46,440 nt of DNA from Gracilibacteraceae bacterium (GTDB lineage: Bacteria > Bacillota > Desulfitobacteriia > Desulfitobacteriales > Syntrophobotulaceae): the NCBI GenBank assembly GCA_031270805.1, contig JAISWK010000045.1:1-46440 (forward strand), written 5' to 3'. Below are positions 27,334-38,398 of this stretch, piece after piece. The position numbers and the translations under genes are program-made. Within the stretch, counting starts at the first letter, position 1. Each line of letters starts with the position of its first letter. The notes below the pieces were generated by a model. The model was not told where the DNA came from. It ran no database searches and saw nothing but the letters and a program-made list of their open reading frames with translations.

Positions 27334-30300
27334 TTACGGAGCGCTCTCCCAGTCATAACCGTTCCAAATGTAGTCGCCGGCGGGAATGGGCGGGGTAAGC
27401 TGCGCCCCGGGCCGAACCGTCAGGCGCCCTCTTGCCTCCGGGTTTTCCTCGGTGATGGCGGCGCCGCGGATGCGCTGGCCCTCGTCGCCCAGGGTGAGAA
27501 CAGCGGTCGGGCCGATTTCCAAGCGACCGGTTCCCTCTATAATGATGTTCCCGTCATTACCACTGACAGTGGAGTCGTCGATGAGGAAGGCGCCATATAC
27601 ATAGATCTCGGCCTCGTCCGCCAGGCTCGTGTCCCGATCCAGGGTGAAGGAGGACTGCGGATAACCTTCCGGCGTTTTATTGACGCTGACGCTGCCGTTG
27701 ATCTCATACCCGGCTTTGCTCAGGGTCAGGTCGCCTTTGACCACGGAGAGATAACCGAAACTCGCGTTGTCAGTGCTATTGGCGCCCACCAGGTGCGTAT
27801 AGCCCATATCCAGGCGACTGCCGGGGAGGCAGACTAGCCGAGGGTCGCCGCTCCAGACATCCCAGCCGTCGCCCGTGCCGCTCTTGAGAGTTCCCCTGAG
27901 CGTAACCAGGGCGTCGCCGGCGACGAGCCGCTCCAAGACCCAGACGCCGTCCACGGCGATCTCGCCGGCGACCTGGGCGTCATACCCGGACGGCAGAGTG
28001 AGCGTGCCTGTGACGTTCAGAGCCGCCTCCGCTTCCACAACCAGGTCTTTATTTATCGTCAGGTCGCCGTTAAGCAGCGTCAGACCTCCGCCGCCGCCGC
28101 TGGCGAAAATCCAGGCGTTCTGCTCCAGGGTCAGAGTGGATGTCGCGGACAGCTGGATTTGCGGCGTTTTCCCTTCCAGCGCACCGGCCCCGGCCAGGAA
28201 AAGGGCGCCGTTCCAGAATTGACCGCCGGCCTGGAGCAAGAGCTTAACCCCGGGATCGGCCCACAAATCATCGGTCGCCGGATTCAGATTGTCGAATCGG
28301 CCCTCGTTTATGACTTCGATTACACCGTCGCCCCGGGCCGGGATATGCTCAACCATCCGCCCCTCCACCTGCACCGTTCCGCCGGCCAAATCCAGGGCGC
28401 TGCCCGTGTTGAGGGTGAGAATCCGGTCGGGTCGGACGATCAGATTCCCGGCGACGCGAAGATTCACGCCGTAGAGGGTAAGGTGCTCCCGCACAGCGGC
28501 GTTTCCCGTCACCTCAATATCGGTCACCTCACCGCCCGTCACGCTGAAATCCACGCCGGCTCCGCTCAGGGCGGAAAAAATATTGTCCGCGTTCAGTGTG
28601 ATGGTTTGCCAGGCCGCGCCGTCCCAGTAATACTTGGCCCCGGGGCCGAGACCGGCGGCGGCGGCCGCGGCTGCCAGCTCGATCCGGGCGTTTTTCTCCG
28701 GCGCGATCGTCCCGGCGGCGGTTAGGCTCTTGCCCGCAGCCACGCTGATCTTGCCGGCGGCGGTTATATTCCATGTTTCCGTGGCGGGAAGGAAAATATC
28801 CTCCTGCACCACGACCGTCCCGGAGATTTGGGCGGCGGCGGCGGAAAGCTCCAAACTGCCGCCCGGATCAATCCGGAGCAGGCCCGGGCTGCCCACATAG
28901 CTGAGCGAATCCTGTTTGACGCTGCAGCCGGCCTCCAAGGTCAGCAAAGCGAAAGACCCGTCCCGCCATTGCCAATAATTTCCAGGCGAGGGGGCGCGAT
29001 TATCGTTCAGGCTTCCCCCGCTCAATACGGTCAAGTGCCCGTTTATTAGGGCTCCGGCGGACAGGGTCAGCGTTCCGCCCTCCGCCACTTCCGTCGCCGC
29101 GGCTAAAGTCACTGCCGCCCCGCTCTCTGTGCGCAGATGCCCGTTGATTTCCAGGAGAGCAGGGTTGTTCACCCTAAAGGCGCCGCTTACGACGAGACTG
29201 CCGTCGACGGAGGTCGGCCCGTACACGGTCAGGACGCCTCCGGCCGCGATATTGCCCCGCTGCAAGAGGAGAGCGCCGCGGGTAGTCAGGTTACCGGAGA
29301 GTACCAGTTCGTCCCGCACGGTCAAGCTGCCCGCCGCCAGGTTCATTGTCCCGCCGATGGCGGCGTTCCGGGCGGCCAGCGTGCCACTGCCCGTAGCGTT
29401 GCCGGCGGCGGTCAGGGTCAGCTTGCCGTCAACATTGACGGCCCCGTTATTCTGCAGGGCACCGCTGACCGTCAAATCGCCGCTTACATTCAGTCGGCCC
29501 TCCGGGCTGAGGGTCAGCTCGCCGGCCAGGGTCAGATTGCCGGCGTTGACGCTTGCTTTGCTCGCGATGGTCATTCGGCCGTTGACGTTAATTTTCACTT
29601 CGTCGTCGAAAACGGTCTGGGTTTCGACTGTGATTATCCCGCCGGCGGCCACTTCCACCGGCTTTTCAAAAACAGTGGGGACAAGGCGCAGTCGCAGGGT
29701 TTCATTATAAATGGTCAGGGGCGAGTCCACCACTATAGCCGTTAAGCCGCTGGTTACTTGGGCCTCCCGGATTTGCTCAATAGTGGAGACGATTCTCGTC
29801 TGCGCGTCGGTATAGCGCATCTTCAGTTCGCTGTCGCCCAACCCGCTCGCGGCGGTGGTGCGCACCCCCACCCAATGCGTATTCTCCACCTTCCGCCCGA
29901 AAGTGAGCGTATAGCTAATATTGCTTATTTGCTCCTTTTTGAGGCCCGTGATGCTCACGATATCCAGCGGCGTCGTCGGGGCGCCCACTCCGGTGAAAGC
30001 CTCGACGTCTCCCAGGCGCATACCGGCGCGGGCGGCGCTCAAAGTCAGAATCGCCGTCTGGTCGCTGGTGAATTCCAAGCTGCGCAGAACCGGCCCTTTG
30101 CTGACTGAGCCGCCGCCTCCACCGCCGCCACCGCCGCCTCCACCACCGCCGCCACCACCGCCTGAGCCGCCGCCGGCGGAAACGCTGCTGCCACCGGCGG
30201 GAAGAGTTCCCCCCAGCGCCACAAGCACGGAGGTCAAGATCTCATCCGAGGCCGCGGCTTCACCGCCGATCGCGCTCACATCCAACAACTCCCGGATGCC

Positions 30301-31215
30301 GGCCATATTGGTTTGGAGAAAAGTCAGCGTCTCGGCGGCGACAGCCTTGTTGTCGGTCAGAATCAGCGGGGCGCCGGCGATATAAGCGGAAGCGGTCAGC
30401 GCGTCCACGAGGTGCTTGTCGGCGCCGCTGGCCACAAACACGCCCCGGCTGTAGTTCCCCGCGCCGGCGAAGAAACGCAGAACGGCCAGATTGGTGGCGT
30501 AACGGTCGCCGCCGCCCAGGCGCACCGGGTCGGGCAGGGAGGCAAAAATCCCGTCGCTCACCGCGCCATGCCCGCCGATTACGTACACATTACTTACTTG
30601 CTGTTCGGTGAGGAAGCCGCGCACCGCCGCCGGCAGAGCGTCCCGGCCGGCCAGCAGTATCGGCCAGCCGTTGGCCGCGGCGATCGAAGCGATGGAGAGA
30701 GCGTCGGCGTTGCTGTAGGCCGTCGTTACCACCGCCGTTGTAACTTCTGTTCTCCGGGCGATTTCCGCCGCGATATTCGCCGCCGTGGCAAAACGATCCG
30801 CTCCGCCCAGGGCCACAGTCCGGATGCCCAGAGCCCGCACGGCGTCGACCACCGGCTGGCGCAAGACGCCGGCGCCTCCGGCCAGGTAAACGGTTTTCAC
30901 GCCCAGCCGCCGCAGTTCGCCGGCCGTGACCGCCGTCAAAGCGCCGCCCTCGGTGATCAGGATCGGCGCGCCGAGCAGTTTGGCCAGCGGAGCGACCGTC
31001 AGCGCGTCCACCAGGTTGGCGTCGGCCCCCGAAGCCAATATCGCGTACTCCGAGCTGTCCCAGCCCGCCTGGGCTATGCTGACCGCCGTCTGATAGCGGT
31101 CGGCCCCGGCCAGGCGGTGCGAGGAAATATTGGCCGCCGCCAACGGCGCTACGGGCAGCATGGTTAAGAAAAGAGCAATAAGGCTTAATACCAGCCGGAC
31201 ATATTTTGCTTTCAT
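27334..31215 (-). CDS. Giant cell-wall-binding repeat (CWB2) surface protein
   Basis: A secreted protein of about 1293 residues: signal peptide (about 5-28, ending PLAAA), then three CWB2-type modules (about 30-335; recurring LAGADRYQTA, LGGADRFATA and LGGGDRYATN), which in clostridia anchor proteins to wall polysaccharide. Next come an uninterrupted polyglycine run (about 349-368) and a very long Leu/Thr/Gly-rich region (about 370-1290) of short recurrent strands such as LTVSGAL, LTLTAAG and LVVSGAF, suggesting a beta-helix stalk. No sortase motif or enzyme domain was found. ATG 31215 is supported by AAGGAGGA five bases upstream. Confidence 0.88.
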   Translation of the reverse strand: MKAKYVRLVLSLIALFLTMLPVAPLAAANISSHRLAGADRYQTAVSIAQAGWDSSEYAILASGADANLVDALTVAPLAKLLGAPILITEGGALTAVTAGELRRLGVKTVYLAGGAGVLRQPVVDAVRALGIRTVALGGADRFATAANIAAEIARRTEVTTAVVTTAYSNADALSIASIAAANGWPILLAGRDALPAAVRGFLTEQQVSNVYVIGGHGAVSDGIFASLPDPVRLGGGDRYATNLAVLRFFAGAGNYSRGVFVASGADKHLVDALTASAYIAGAPLILTDNKAVAAETLTFLQTNMAGIRELLDVSAIGGEAAASDEILTSVLVALGGTLPAGGSSVSAGGGSGGGGGGGGGGGGGGGGGGSVSKGPVLRSLEFTSDQTAILTLSAARAGMRLGDVEAFTGVGAPTTPLDIVSITGLKKEQISNISYTLTFGRKVENTHWVGVRTTAASGLGDSELKMRYTDAQTRIVSTIEQIREAQVTSGLTAIVVDSPLTIYNETLRLRLVPTVFEKPVEVAAGGIITVETQTVFDDEVKINVNGRMTIASKASVNAGNLTLAGELTLSPEGRLNVSGDLTVSGALQNNGAVNVDGKLTLTAAGNATGSGTLAARNAAIGGTMNLAAGSLTVRDELVLSGNLTTRGALLLQRGNIAAGGVLTVYGPTSVDGSLVVSGAFRVNNPALLEINGHLRTESGAAVTLAAATEVAEGGTLTLSAGALINGHLTVLSGGSLNDNRAPSPGNYWQWRDGSFALLTLEAGCSVKQDSLSYVGSPGLLRIDPGGSLELSAAAAQISGTVVVQEDIFLPATETWNITAAGKISVAAGKSLTAAGTIAPEKNARIELAAAAAAAGLGPGAKYYWDGAAWQTITLNADNIFSALSGAGVDFSVTGGEVTDIEVTGNAAVREHLTLYGVNLRVAGNLIVRPDRILTLNTGSALDLAGGTVQVEGRMVEHIPARGDGVIEVINEGRFDNLNPATDDLWADPGVKLLLQAGGQFWNGALFLAGAGALEGKTPQIQLSATSTLTLEQNAWIFASGGGGGLTLLNGDLTINKDLVVEAEAALNVTGTLTLPSGYDAQVAGEIAVDGVWVLERLVAGDALVTLRGTLKSGTGDGWDVWSGDPRLVCLPGSRLDMGYTHLVGANSTDNASFGYLSVVKGDLTLSKAGYEINGSVSVNKTPEGYPQSSFTLDRDTSLADEAEIYVYGAFLIDDSTVSGNDGNIIIEGTGRLEIGPTAVLTLGDEGQRIRGAAITEENPEARGRLTVRPGAQLTPPIPAGDYIWNGYDWESAP
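30110..30170 (-). repeat. Polyglycine-coding low-complexity run
   Basis: A near-continuous run of GGN codons within the CWB2 protein gene encodes about 20 glycines between the wall-binding and stalk regions. It is prone to length change by slippage. Confidence 0.85.
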
Positions 31216-31268
31216 TTGATCCTCCTTATACTGATTCAATTATAATATTTATTTTTACAATTATAGCC

Positions 31269-35087: not shown

Positions 35088-35630
35088 ATGCAGGACTGTG
35101 ACGGGCGGGTGCTGGAATCGCTGGAGCGAATTTATCGCTGCCTGGAGGCGGAGATCGAAAAATTAAGCGATTTGAGAGCCGTCCCCTTAGACGGTCTGCG
35201 GGAAATGGCCCGGGAAACCAAAGGATACGCCCGTCTGCTGGAGGAAATATCTGCCGCCGGGCGCGTGGTGGTTGAGTACGCCCTGTTGCTGAAAAGGGAC
35301 GACGGCCGGATCGCGCTGGAAACGGATGCGGTGAGGCAAGGTTTTTGCGCCGTGCGCCGCGTTCATATAGAAGAATTTGGCGTTTTGCGCCTGGATCTGG
35401 GAGACGCGCGCCTGACTTGGCGGGACGGAGGCTGCAACTACCTGTTTTACCCCGACAAATTGGAGATGCGCGCGCAGGACGAAAGAACCGCCGTCAAATT
35501 ATTTTTTTCCCGCTCCTTCGATCGGCAGTTCCTGCGGCACAAAGGCGATTTGCTCGCCTGCCCCCTGACGAGCTACGTCCATCCCGAGCTGGAAGAGATT
35601 TTGCGCGAAGAACTGCGGTCGGCGGAGTGA
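35088..35630 (+). CDS. Hypothetical protein upstream of the DnaA-like gene
   Basis: A 180-residue protein not assigned to a family. It has a helical, probably coiled-coil N-terminal third (about 5-60, ESLERIYRCLEAEIEKL) and then an alpha/beta region with the motif WRDGGCNYLFYPDKLEM, and ends in an acidic helix. No signal or membrane segment is seen. ATG 35088 after GGTGAG is chosen; in-frame starts at 35037 and 35070 are possible. The stop is 12 bases before the DnaA-like gene, so the two are likely cotranscribed and may act together. Confidence 0.7.
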   Translation: MQDCDGRVLESLERIYRCLEAEIEKLSDLRAVPLDGLREMARETKGYARLLEEISAAGRVVVEYALLLKRDDGRIALETDAVRQGFCAVRRVHIEEFGVLRLDLGDARLTWRDGGCNYLFYPDKLEMRAQDERTAVKLFFSRSFDRQFLRHKGDLLACPLTSYVHPELEEILREELRSAE

Positions 35631-35642
35631 CGGAGAAAACAA

Positions 35643-36491
35643 ATGTACGTCAGTAATTGCAACGGTCTGTGTTTCAGCGTTTTTAACGATTACGACCCCG
35701 CGACCGCGCCGGACATTCTGCTCCTGCTCGGCTGTCCCGGCAGCGGCAAGACCCTGTTGCTGGAGCATCTGCGGCGCAAATTGCAAAGGACGCACCGGGT
35801 GTCATTTCTGGATTCCGCCGCTTTTGCCCGCAAATTCGCTTTTTTGCTGCACAAAGGGGATTACAGCGCCTGGCGGAAAGAGCTGCGCGCCTCGGAAGTC
35901 CTGCTCGTCGATGATATTCACGCTATCGGCGGCAAGAAAAAAACCCTGGAAGAAATGTACTACACGATGAAGGACGTGCTGGCCCGCGGCGGCAAATTGG
36001 TACTCACCGCCTGCGGCCACCGTTACTGTCCGGAGGCGCTGGGGGCGCATTTACGCGCCAATCTCACCACCGCCCTTACTTTTCGCCTCAACGATCCCAG
36101 CCTGGAGGAAAAAGAGCAATTCCTCCGCCACTATTCCCGGCGCAGAGGAATAGCGACCGACGGTATGGCGGCTCTACCGCTGAGCGACATGAGTTTTAAG
36201 GATATCGCGGCGGCCGTGGACGGGCACGCCGCCGGCGAGCCTTTTGTTCTCCGCGATCTGGCCCTGGCCTATGAAAGACTGCTTTCTTCCTTGCGGGATG
36301 TCCGGCATGACGATATAGTCGGCCGCAGCAAAAAAACGGAGATTGTGCAGGCGCGGCGGGAGATTTGTTTTCGTCTGACGGAAAATCTGGGTTATTCCCA
36401 TCGGGACGTGGCCGTATTCCTCGGCCACACGATCAGCTGTATTCGACAGCGCTGCCACGCCTACAGAGTGGAGGCGGGGAAAGGAGATTAG
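35643..36491 (+). CDS. DnaA-like AAA+ ATPase paralogue with DNA-binding domain
   Basis: A 282-residue protein that aligns by eye with DnaA domains III and IV but lacks domains I-II. Walker A GCPGSGKT (about 31-38), Walker B LLVDDIHAI (about 88), sensor I LVLTACGH and a sensor-II-like arginine (VLRDLALAYERL) are present. At the Box VII/arginine-finger segment, AHLRANLTTAL replaces DnaA's RLKSRFxxGL, so the finger Arg appears to be Asn. The domain IV helix TEIVQARREICFRL is clear, while the DHxTV recognition motif is altered to GHTISCI. It could be a regulator like Hda or a specialised DNA-binding ATPase. It ends one base before the pfkA ATG. Confidence 0.8.
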   Translation: MYVSNCNGLCFSVFNDYDPATAPDILLLLGCPGSGKTLLLEHLRRKLQRTHRVSFLDSAAFARKFAFLLHKGDYSAWRKELRASEVLLVDDIHAIGGKKKTLEEMYYTMKDVLARGGKLVLTACGHRYCPEALGAHLRANLTTALTFRLNDPSLEEKEQFLRHYSRRRGIATDGMAALPLSDMSFKDIAAAVDGHAAGEPFVLRDLALAYERLLSSLRDVRHDDIVGRSKKTEIVQARREICFRLTENLGYSHRDVAVFLGHTISCIRQRCHAYRVEAGKGD

Positions 36492-36492
36492 A

Positions 36493-37455
36493 ATGGTGAA
36501 CAAAATTGCCGTCCTGACCAGCGGAGGCGACGCCCCCGGGATGAACGCCGCCGTGCGCGCCGTGGTGCGCAAAAGTATTTTTCACGAATTGGAAGTGTAT
36601 GGCGTCTACCACGGGTATGACGGCTTGCAGCGCAATATTATCCGGCGAATGGAGCTCGGCTCCGTAGCCGACATTATTCACCGGGGCGGGACGATGCTGC
36701 AGACGGCCCGCTGTCTGGCCATGCTGACCGGGGAAGGTCAGGCCAGGGCGGCCGCCGCCTTGCGGGAGCACGGGATCAGCGGCCTCGTCGTCGTCGGCGG
36801 CGACGGTTCGTATCGCGGCGCTCAAGCGCTGGCCCGGCACGGTCTCCGGGTCGTCGGCGTCCCCGGCACGATAGACAACGACATTCTCGGCACAGAATTG
36901 ACCATCGGCTTTGACACGGCGGTCAATACCGTGATCGAGGCCGTCAGCAAATTAAGGGATACGGCTTCGTCGCACGAGCGCGCTTTTATCGTGGAGGTCA
37001 TGGGCCGCAATTGCGGCGACATCGCCCTGCGAGCCGGGCTGGGCATAGGAGCGGAAACGATTATCATTCCGGAAGTACCCTATGATTTGGATGAGATAGG
37101 GCAAAAAATCCTGCGCGGCGTCAAGCGGGGCAAGAATCACAGTATAATCATCGTGGCCGAAGGAGCGGGGGACGCGCGGGAAATAGGAGCGCGGCTGCAT
37201 GAAATCGCCGGAGTGGAATCCCGGGTGACGATTCTCGGGCATGTGCAGCGCGGAGGCAGCCCCACGGCCGCCGACGCGGTTTTAGCCACGCGCATGGGGG
37301 CCAAGGCCGTAGAGGCGCTGATGAACGGCGAATCGGAAGTGATGGTGGCCGCCTGGCACAACGATATTATCCTGCGCCCGCTGGACCTGGCTTTTGCCGA
37401 GCGGCCGCCTTTTGACAGAGGAATGTACGATCTGGCCGATCAACTGGCTATATAG
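36493..37455 (+). CDS. pfkA: ATP-dependent 6-phosphofructokinase
   Basis: Phosphorylates fructose 6-phosphate in glycolysis. The 320 residues match the short bacterial ATP-PFK. Nucleotide motif LTSGGDAPGMNAAVRA is at the N-terminus. GGDGSYRGA (glycine where PPi enzymes usually have Asp) indicates ATP use, PGTIDND holds the catalytic Asp, and MGRNCGD is the substrate-binding stretch. The ATG is one base after the stop of the DnaA-like gene, so its translation is probably coupled to it. Confidence 0.95.
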   Translation: MVNKIAVLTSGGDAPGMNAAVRAVVRKSIFHELEVYGVYHGYDGLQRNIIRRMELGSVADIIHRGGTMLQTARCLAMLTGEGQARAAAALREHGISGLVVVGGDGSYRGAQALARHGLRVVGVPGTIDNDILGTELTIGFDTAVNTVIEAVSKLRDTASSHERAFIVEVMGRNCGDIALRAGLGIGAETIIIPEVPYDLDEIGQKILRGVKRGKNHSIIIVAEGAGDAREIGARLHEIAGVESRVTILGHVQRGGSPTAADAVLATRMGAKAVEALMNGESEVMVAAWHNDIILRPLDLAFAERPPFDRGMYDLADQLAI

Positions 37456-37497: not shown

Positions 37498-38334
37498 ATG
37501 AAAAAAAACGGGCCGGAACTGAGGCAAATGGCGGAGGCCGGCGAAAAAATTACCATGCTGACGGCTTATGATTATATGACGGCCAGAGCGGCGGAACTGG
37601 CGGGCGTGGACACCATTCTGGTCGGGGATTCGCTGGGCATGGTCGTCTTAGGCTACGATTCCACGGTGGCCGTAACGATGGAGGATATGCTCCATCACCT
37701 GAAGGCGGCGCGGCGCGGCGCCCCGGAGACCTTTATCATTTGCGACCTGCCCTTTATGAGTTACGCCGAACCGGGCCCGGCGCTCGCTAACAGCGGCCGC
37801 CTAATGAAAGAAGGCGGGGCGGACGCCGTCAAACTGGAAGGCGGCGAGCATTTCGCCCCTGTCGTGCGGGCTTTGACCAGGGCCGGGATCCCGGTCGTGG
37901 GTCATATCGGCCTGACGCCCCAGACCGCCGGGCAATTGGGCGGCTTCAAGGTGCAGGGCCGGGACCTGGACGGCGCCCGCCAGTTGTTGCGGGACGCGCT
38001 GGCGATCGAGGAAGCGGGGGCGGTGATGATCGTGCTGGAAGCGATACCATCCCAACTCGCCGCCGCCATAGCCGAGCGGCTGCAAATTCCGACGATCGGC
38101 ATCGGAGCGGGCCCGGACGCGGACGGCCAAGTGCTGGTCATACACGACGTTCTCGGCTTGTATGACCGTTTCACCCCCAAATTTGTGAAACAATATGCCC
38201 GTTTGCAGGCCGACATCGTCCTGGCCCTGAAATTATATTGCCGGGAGGTGAAAGAAGGAATCTTTCCGGATGCGGCCCATAGTTTTACAATGCGGGAAGA
38301 TGTGTGGAGCGAGCTTTTGGCCGAATCCGGCTGA
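37498..38334 (+). CDS. panB: 3-methyl-2-oxobutanoate hydroxymethyltransferase
   Basis: Transfers a hydroxymethyl group from methylene-tetrahydrofolate to ketoisovalerate to give ketopantoate, the substrate of PanE. Family motifs: MLTAYDYMTA, VGDSLGMVVLGY, HIGLTPQ and GIGAGPDADGQVLV, and the Glu in LEAIPSQLA. ATG 37498 gives 278 residues, the usual size; GTG at 37465 would add 11 residues with its ribosome site too close. No panC or panD is nearby. A terminator follows. Confidence 0.93.
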   Translation: MKKNGPELRQMAEAGEKITMLTAYDYMTARAAELAGVDTILVGDSLGMVVLGYDSTVAVTMEDMLHHLKAARRGAPETFIICDLPFMSYAEPGPALANSGRLMKEGGADAVKLEGGEHFAPVVRALTRAGIPVVGHIGLTPQTAGQLGGFKVQGRDLDGARQLLRDALAIEEAGAVMIVLEAIPSQLAAAIAERLQIPTIGIGAGPDADGQVLVIHDVLGLYDRFTPKFVKQYARLQADIVLALKLYCREVKEGIFPDAAHSFTMREDVWSELLAESG

Positions 38335-38362: not shown

Positions 38363-38398
38363 ACCCGGGCAGGGTGGCGGCTGCCCGGTGGTTTTTTT
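38363..38398 (+). terminator. Rho-independent terminator after panB
   Basis: An 8-bp GC stem (38365-38372 / 38381-38388) with an 8-base loop is followed by seven T residues (38392-38398). It closes the transcription unit that includes pfkA and panB. Confidence 0.85.

Follow-up and report, generated by a model that had tools for sequence, protein, structure and literature searches.

A short DnaA paralogue, restricted to one bacterial order, is encoded beside phosphofructokinase

INTRODUCTION

In Firmicutes, the usual negative regulator of DnaA is YabA, and how bacteria couple the start of replication to their metabolism is still debated. The roles of individual residues of Escherichia coli DnaA, such as R227, K243, R285, and V211, have been described (PMC5742627), and DnaA also acts as a transcription factor (PMC8203912). 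In Bacillus subtilis, glycolysis and replication are connected by PykA-DnaE and other links (PMC10427196). Two putative origins are listed for Dehalobacter CF, the second of which adjoins parB and not the paralogue that we describe here (Gao 2015, PMC4403523). In the open-licence literature, we found no description of DnaA together with phosphofructokinase and none of a DnaA paralogue from either Desulfitobacterium or Dehalobacter.

Here, we analyze a locus in a 46,440-nucleotide stretch of DNA from a Gracilibacteraceae bacterium, which we call the window. A sequence-only reading had pointed to a DnaA paralogue without an apparent arginine finger, lying directly before pfkA, and had proposed that it could bind ATP and perhaps DNA, fail to form normal filaments, and possibly act against initiation.

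RESULTS

The window encodes a short DnaA paralogue made of domains III and IV

The ORF at 35643-36491 (+ strand) encodes a protein of 282 aa that is a true DnaA paralogue with DnaA domains III-IV, as supported by Pfam, NCBIfam, AlphaFold2, and the tree. It matches Pfam Bac_DnaA with 57 bits (E 3.4e-15), and its best sequence matches among solved structures are DnaA 8bv3, labelled as Bacillus subtilis DnaA domain III in the fold-search listing, and 2hcb/1l8q from Aquifex aeolicus. The AlphaFold2 model, built with an alignment of 29 family members, reached a mean pLDDT of 89.4, and a PDB fold search with this model placed DnaA at the top (1l8q, 3r8f, 2hcb, 8btg) and Hda next, confirming the DnaA homology that had been proposed. 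The domain IV helix claimed earlier is also borne out, as the fold match to DnaA covers domain IV and its helices are visible in the model, but by sequence this domain gives only a marginal Pfam match of 15.9 bits, below the cut-off. The first residues of the protein are those of the domain III N-linker, which also forms the N-termini of the orthologues (MYVSxxN or MFVSxxN), and the protein therefore lacks domains I and II, as had been read.

Except for the generic AAA and DnaA domain models, no curated family in Pfam or NCBIfam was matched above its own cut-off. Against the DnaA equivalog TIGR00362, the window paralogue scored 73.6 bits and its orthologues 116-168 bits, far below the cut-off of 343.9; against TIGR03420 (Hda), the scores were 43.3 and 29-48 bits, respectively, and did not reach the cut-off of 194.8. 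The match of the window paralogue to PRK08939 (DnaI) was 18.3 bits versus a cut-off of 228, and the loader N-terminal extension is absent.

Nucleotide-binding motifs are kept and both sensors are lost

We numbered the residues of the window protein by alignment to E. coli DnaA. Walker A (GCPGSGKT, aa 30-37, with K36 at K178; 35730-35753, +) and Walker B (VLLVDD, aa 86-91, with D90 and D91 at D235 and D236; 35898-35915, +) are kept, the latter including the LLVDD at aa 87-91, and AID-1 R227 and K243 are retained as well. The E. coli sequence R281LKSR285 aligns with H136LRAN140, in the stretch HLRANL (36048-36065, +), and both arginines are lost, with His136 at Box VII R281 and Asn140 at finger R285, exactly as the sequence-only reading had it. 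A hidden finger at Arg138, two residues off, was considered and rejected because this position is Q, G, or S in sister species.

The same reading was wrong in stating that sensor I and a sensor-II-like Arg are kept, as Cys124 stands at D269 in the sensor-I strand LVLTAC (35997-36014, +) and Lys186 stands at R334 in SFKDIA (36192-36209, +). The hydrophobic ssDNA-binding residue V211 is Ala. In the domain IV helix region, which runs from Arg238 to the degenerate DHTTV region (LGHTISCIRQRC, 36354-36455, +), R407 is retained as R238 and R399 is replaced by Lys. The DHxTV motif is indeed altered, but its proposed rearrangement to GHTISCI is ambiguous: the GHT triplet (aa 261-263), invariant within the genus, could be a shifted equivalent of DHTTV.

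The paralogue is present in nearly every genome of two families

We refer to the families of the class as f1, f2, f3, and f4, the window's genus belonging to f1. A scan of genome contigs with the single protein returned no relatives, and a closer family alignment as query recovered five named loci, from Candidatus Dichloromethanomonas elyunquensis and uncultured Peptococcaceae. Among 60 relatives searched, genomes of the same genus carry the paralogue at 65-74% identity, and most of the others encode a short protein 24-36% identical to it, usually accompanied by another match, as long as a full-length DnaA, at a separate place in the genome. A profile search of 83 genomes of the class detected the paralogue in 70 of the 71 f1 and f2 genomes, with scores of 176-431 bits and one contig-edge fragment at 99, and in none of the three f3 and nine f4 genomes, which have full-length DnaA only. 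No paralogue was found outside f1 and f2 in a phylum sample of 399 genomes; four extra matches in this sample were discarded, since their frames of 437-548 aa are full-length DnaA. These searches show an order-restricted family that is present in nearly every f1 and f2 genome. The two families are related to each other and consist of anaerobic Firmicutes of the Peptococcaceae type, and their other members presumably resemble Dehalobacter, Syntrophobotulus, Desulfitobacterium, and Desulfosporosinus.

A separate full-length dnaA, which the earlier reading had left to be searched for, is present in relatives, including three of the four same-genus genomes, but a search of the incomplete genome to which the window belongs (G000; 196 contigs, 83.6% complete) did not detect one. 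There, dnaN was not found either, and the identical dnaN search was positive in ten control genomes. Because dnaN is also missing, the dnaA-dnaN origin region is most likely absent from the assembly, and the lack of a dnaA match there has no bearing on the biology; for the same reason, along with the full-length DnaA of same-genus genomes, we rejected the paralogue as a substitute for a lost DnaA. Genome G004 of the same genus, in which the short paralogue coexists with a normal DnaA, also encodes a 643-aa protein (L064:1849-3780, -) with BspA-type leucine-rich repeats fused to DnaA domains III-IV (Pfam LRR_5, 241 bits; DnaA domains III-IV, 205 and 98 bits), a fusion that may be a chimeric assembly.

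In a maximum-likelihood tree of 56 rows, including Hda and DnaC rows, all 30 short paralogues formed one clade (99/100) apart from full-length DnaA, with a stem of 1.8 changes per site. Within it, f1 forms a clade (100/99), and the window's genus sits on a further long stem (1.5). The tree proposed earlier as a check thus returned a single paralogue clade, but not its place among DnaA and Hda, because the Hda and DnaC rows are long. The paralogue would have a single origin, in the common ancestor of the two families. Within the genus, dN/dS was 0.12-0.20 between species at 65-74% identity, and the closest pair gave 0.07; the gene is therefore constrained, that is, under purifying selection. 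A degenerate DnaA relic carried in the operon could account for the long stem of the genus and for the loss of several motifs, as could a helicase loader of the DnaC/DnaI type, but both are highly improbable. A relic would not be expected to show such dN/dS values or to persist in 70 of 71 genomes, while a separate DnaC-like loader is encoded in the window's genome (L002), and domain IV, the DnaA-best scores, and the fold group the paralogue with DnaA.

Walker motifs and DnaA-DnaA interface residues are the common denominator of the family

The residue survey covered 47 copies, with full-length DnaA removed from the f2 set before counting and with f1 and f2 split by H434, a division that matches the family to which each genome is assigned. 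K178, D235, and R227 are present in every copy covering the site, and K243 in all but one. The sensors are lost throughout, with Arg at sensor II R334 in none of the 47 copies and sensor I D269 in one, and V211 is replaced by A, S, or C in all but one copy. Finger R285 is present in 39 of the 42 copies outside the window's genus (18/19 in f1 and 21/23 in f2) and in none of the five inside, where the position is N, N, N, N, and S; g19, a genus of f2, has lost it as well (F, L), and G008 has Lys instead. The finger is thus retained in almost all members, and its loss is secondary. A conserved Arg at this position, which would have contradicted the sequence-only reading, does not occur in the window's genus. 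However, RLxSR is retained by almost all orthologues from other genera; finger loss therefore does not define the family, and filament failure by this route could explain only this genus.

D236 is Asn in 18 of the 19 f1 copies outside the genus, as it is in E. coli Hda (CIDNIE). This Walker-B Asn, the finger in 39 of 42 copies, and the ranking of Hda structures after DnaA would all suit a genuine Hda-like RIDA factor, in which the arginine finger stimulates hydrolysis of DnaA-ATP. We consider such a role unlikely, as no N-terminal clamp-binding motif QL[SP]LPL was found in the paralogues, internal matches being scattered and chance-like, and as most copies keep domain IV. In addition, the TIGR03420 scores of the orthologues remain at 29-48 bits versus the required 194.8, and the mechanism is inapplicable to the window's genus and to g19, where the finger is lost.

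Domain IV differs between the two families. H434 is present in all 23 f2 copies and in no f1 or window-genus copy; f2 also has R399 in 20 of 23 copies and keeps R407, which is retained in every member having domain IV. Other DNA-contact positions (D433, T435, and Q408) drift across the family. In f2, domain IV was significant where scanned (60 bits at L050 and 54 bits at L054), while in f1 it has been lost in two genera (L112 in G010 and L113 in G008), leaving AAA+-only proteins of 204-207 aa with an Hda-like architecture. The lost contact His, the two genera without domain IV, and the kept interface indicate that DNA binding is dispensable in f1, and the invariant H434 with a significant domain IV points to DNA binding in f2. 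Therefore, the common denominator of the family is nucleotide binding plus the DnaA-DnaA interface, with DNA binding and the finger being variable.

The paralogue is linked to pfkA in two families

In the window, the paralogue lies between a gene without a family match, unk (180 aa; 35088-35630, +), which ends 12 bp upstream, and pfkA (36493-37455, +; Pfam PFK, 359.8 bits), which is separated from its stop codon by 1 bp, and both spacings had been read correctly. Next comes panB (37501-38334, +; Pfam Pantoate_transf, 374 bits), which is probably the last gene of the transcription unit. A candidate intrinsic terminator follows at 38365-38388 (+), which matches the consensus, although the terminator total of the region is not above that of shuffles, and the gene order with panB is the same at loci L033 and L034. 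Upstream in the window, 27334-31239 (-) encodes a protein of 1301 aa that combines CWB2 cell-wall-binding repeats with a poly-glycine linker.

Of the 70 genomes with the paralogue, 56 have pfkA on the same strand no more than 250 bp downstream, another eight have it within 4 kb, and six have no PFK match on the contig and strand of the paralogue. Among these six, L035 has an adjacent pfkA fragment at the contig edge, and G035 stops at the contig end. At least 7 kb 3' of the paralogue are without pfkA in G014 and G064, where the link may be broken; G055 and G068 make up the rest of the six. The association proposed from the window alone is thus conserved over two families, and the homologues, which by curated score are neither Hda nor DnaC, do have a conserved neighbor.

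In several f2 genomes, pgi is among the next genes after pfkA, and an FtsA/PilM-like gene of ~710 aa occurs soon after pfkA in f1 and f2 (L042:4037-6178 and equivalents, about 25 loci). In f3, pfkA adjoins an apparent sugar kinase, and in f4 it adjoins apparent dnaE, accD, accA, and pyk (L117 and L118, named by eye), the f4 neighborhood being another pfkA setting with an apparent replication gene (dnaE).

The main rival to a role in replication starts from this conserved place directly upstream of pfkA, with pgi next in several f2 genomes: the paralogue would be a DnaA-derived transcription factor that oligomerizes with ATP, contacts DNA by means of domain IV, and sets the expression of pfkA (and pgi), replication not being the target. 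DnaA itself works as a transcription factor (PMC8203912), and the H434 (23/23), R399 (20/23), and R407 of f2 would fit this role better than the residues of f1. Even so, we find it doubtful, because D433, T435, and Q408 drift, because f1 copies without H434 and those of the two genera without domain IV are still beside pfkA, and because no DnaA-box cluster was found at the locus, with DnaA boxes in the window not beyond chance and no cluster at the loci of relatives.

The product of unk had no family match in Pfam or NCBIfam, and its AlphaFold2 model (pLDDT 93.2) consists of a helical hairpin plus a PH-like beta sandwich, a label that comes from weak fold matches, as a PDB fold search with the model returned nothing below E 1e-3. 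The gene is present in f1, f2, and one f3 genome and absent from f4, nearly the same genomes as the paralogue, and is thus its conserved companion. The adjacency of all three genes suggested by the window holds only in part, since the paralogue stays next to pfkA but unk adjoins it only in the window's genus and in genome G008; most of f1 has glutamine synthetase between them, and in f2 unk lies roughly 4-26 kb upstream where one contig holds both. The tight linkage to pfkA, the phyletic range in common with unk, and the loss of initiator functions would also agree with a protein that partners phosphofructokinase or the unk product directly, a nucleotide-sensing or assembly ATPase in which the DnaA fold is reused for metabolism. 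This is quite unlikely in our view, as it has no known precedent and gives no reason, unless there is self-assembly, for the kept DnaA-interface residues.

DISCUSSION

The paralogue family described here is DnaA-derived, is distinct from Hda, and is probably not an initiator, and no description of it was found in the open-licence literature. We tentatively favor the reading that it descends from DnaA, is expressed together with glycolysis, and serves DnaA as a partner or opposes it as an antagonist, which would dock through the AAA+ interface and restrain DnaA, and the anti-initiator role suggested by the sequence-only reading is possible. Nucleotide binding is predicted, yet the protein would be no initiator, because domain I for helicase contacts, the ssDNA residue, and both sensors are missing. 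The residues for contacts between one domain III and another are kept (R227 and K243, plus Box VII and the finger outside the genus), and the paralogue could join DnaA by this head-to-tail interface, holding it back. In finger-bearing orthologues, the finger could enter ATP-DnaA in trans, as that of Hda does. In the window's genus, an ATP pocket without a finger could only accept the finger of DnaA, and by residue logic alone the paralogue may cap one end of the DnaA oligomer. Co-expression with pfkA would couple the amount of the paralogue to glycolytic gene expression.

Essentially all of the genomes examined encode YabA, so the paralogue was rejected as its replacement, and this leaves no vacancy for the paralogue to fill, which counts against the restraint of DnaA; the paralogue would then be an additional layer. 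A fuller version of the idea, in which an order-specific DnaA-derived regulator made with phosphofructokinase, plus the PH-like protein, tunes initiation to the glycolytic state and acts in the window's genus as a finger-less cap, appears to us somewhat unlikely.

An initiator paralogue fixed lineage-wide beside the gene of a committed glycolytic step is a specific, testable candidate for a tie between replication and metabolism in culturable bacteria. The family is also a natural mutant series, in which f2 retains both DNA binding and the finger, most of f1 has the finger but has lost the DNA contacts, and the window's genus has lost the finger, and this series allows one to ask which DnaA surface the paralogue needs.

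In comparison with known systems, the paralogue is most similar to DnaA, with which it shares the AAA+ domain III with Walker A and B, AID-1 R227, and K243, the helices of domain IV, and the best fold match; most members also have Box VII and the finger. Unlike DnaA, it has no domains I-II, sensor I, sensor II, or hydrophobic ssDNA residue, and it is found beside pfkA instead of at a dnaA-dnaN origin locus and coexists with full-length DnaA. Similar to Hda and HdaA, it is a DnaA-like AAA+ protein without domains I-II, with the finger in most members, the Walker-B DN in f1 members, and no domain IV in two genera. However, it usually has domain IV, has lost sensor residues still found in Hda of E. 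coli, falls far below the TIGR03420 cut-off, and forms its own long-branched clade. The DnaC/DnaI/IstB loaders belong to the same AAA+ initiator/loader group, but the match to them is much weaker, their N-terminal domain is not present, and a separate DnaC-like gene exists. YabA resembles the paralogue in function only, as both would restrain DnaA at the protein level, whereas their sequences are unrelated and both coexist in nearly all genomes. Finally, the PykA-DnaE link of B. subtilis likewise couples a glycolytic enzyme to a replication protein, although it joins pyruvate kinase and DnaE, while the one found here joins phosphofructokinase and a DnaA paralogue.
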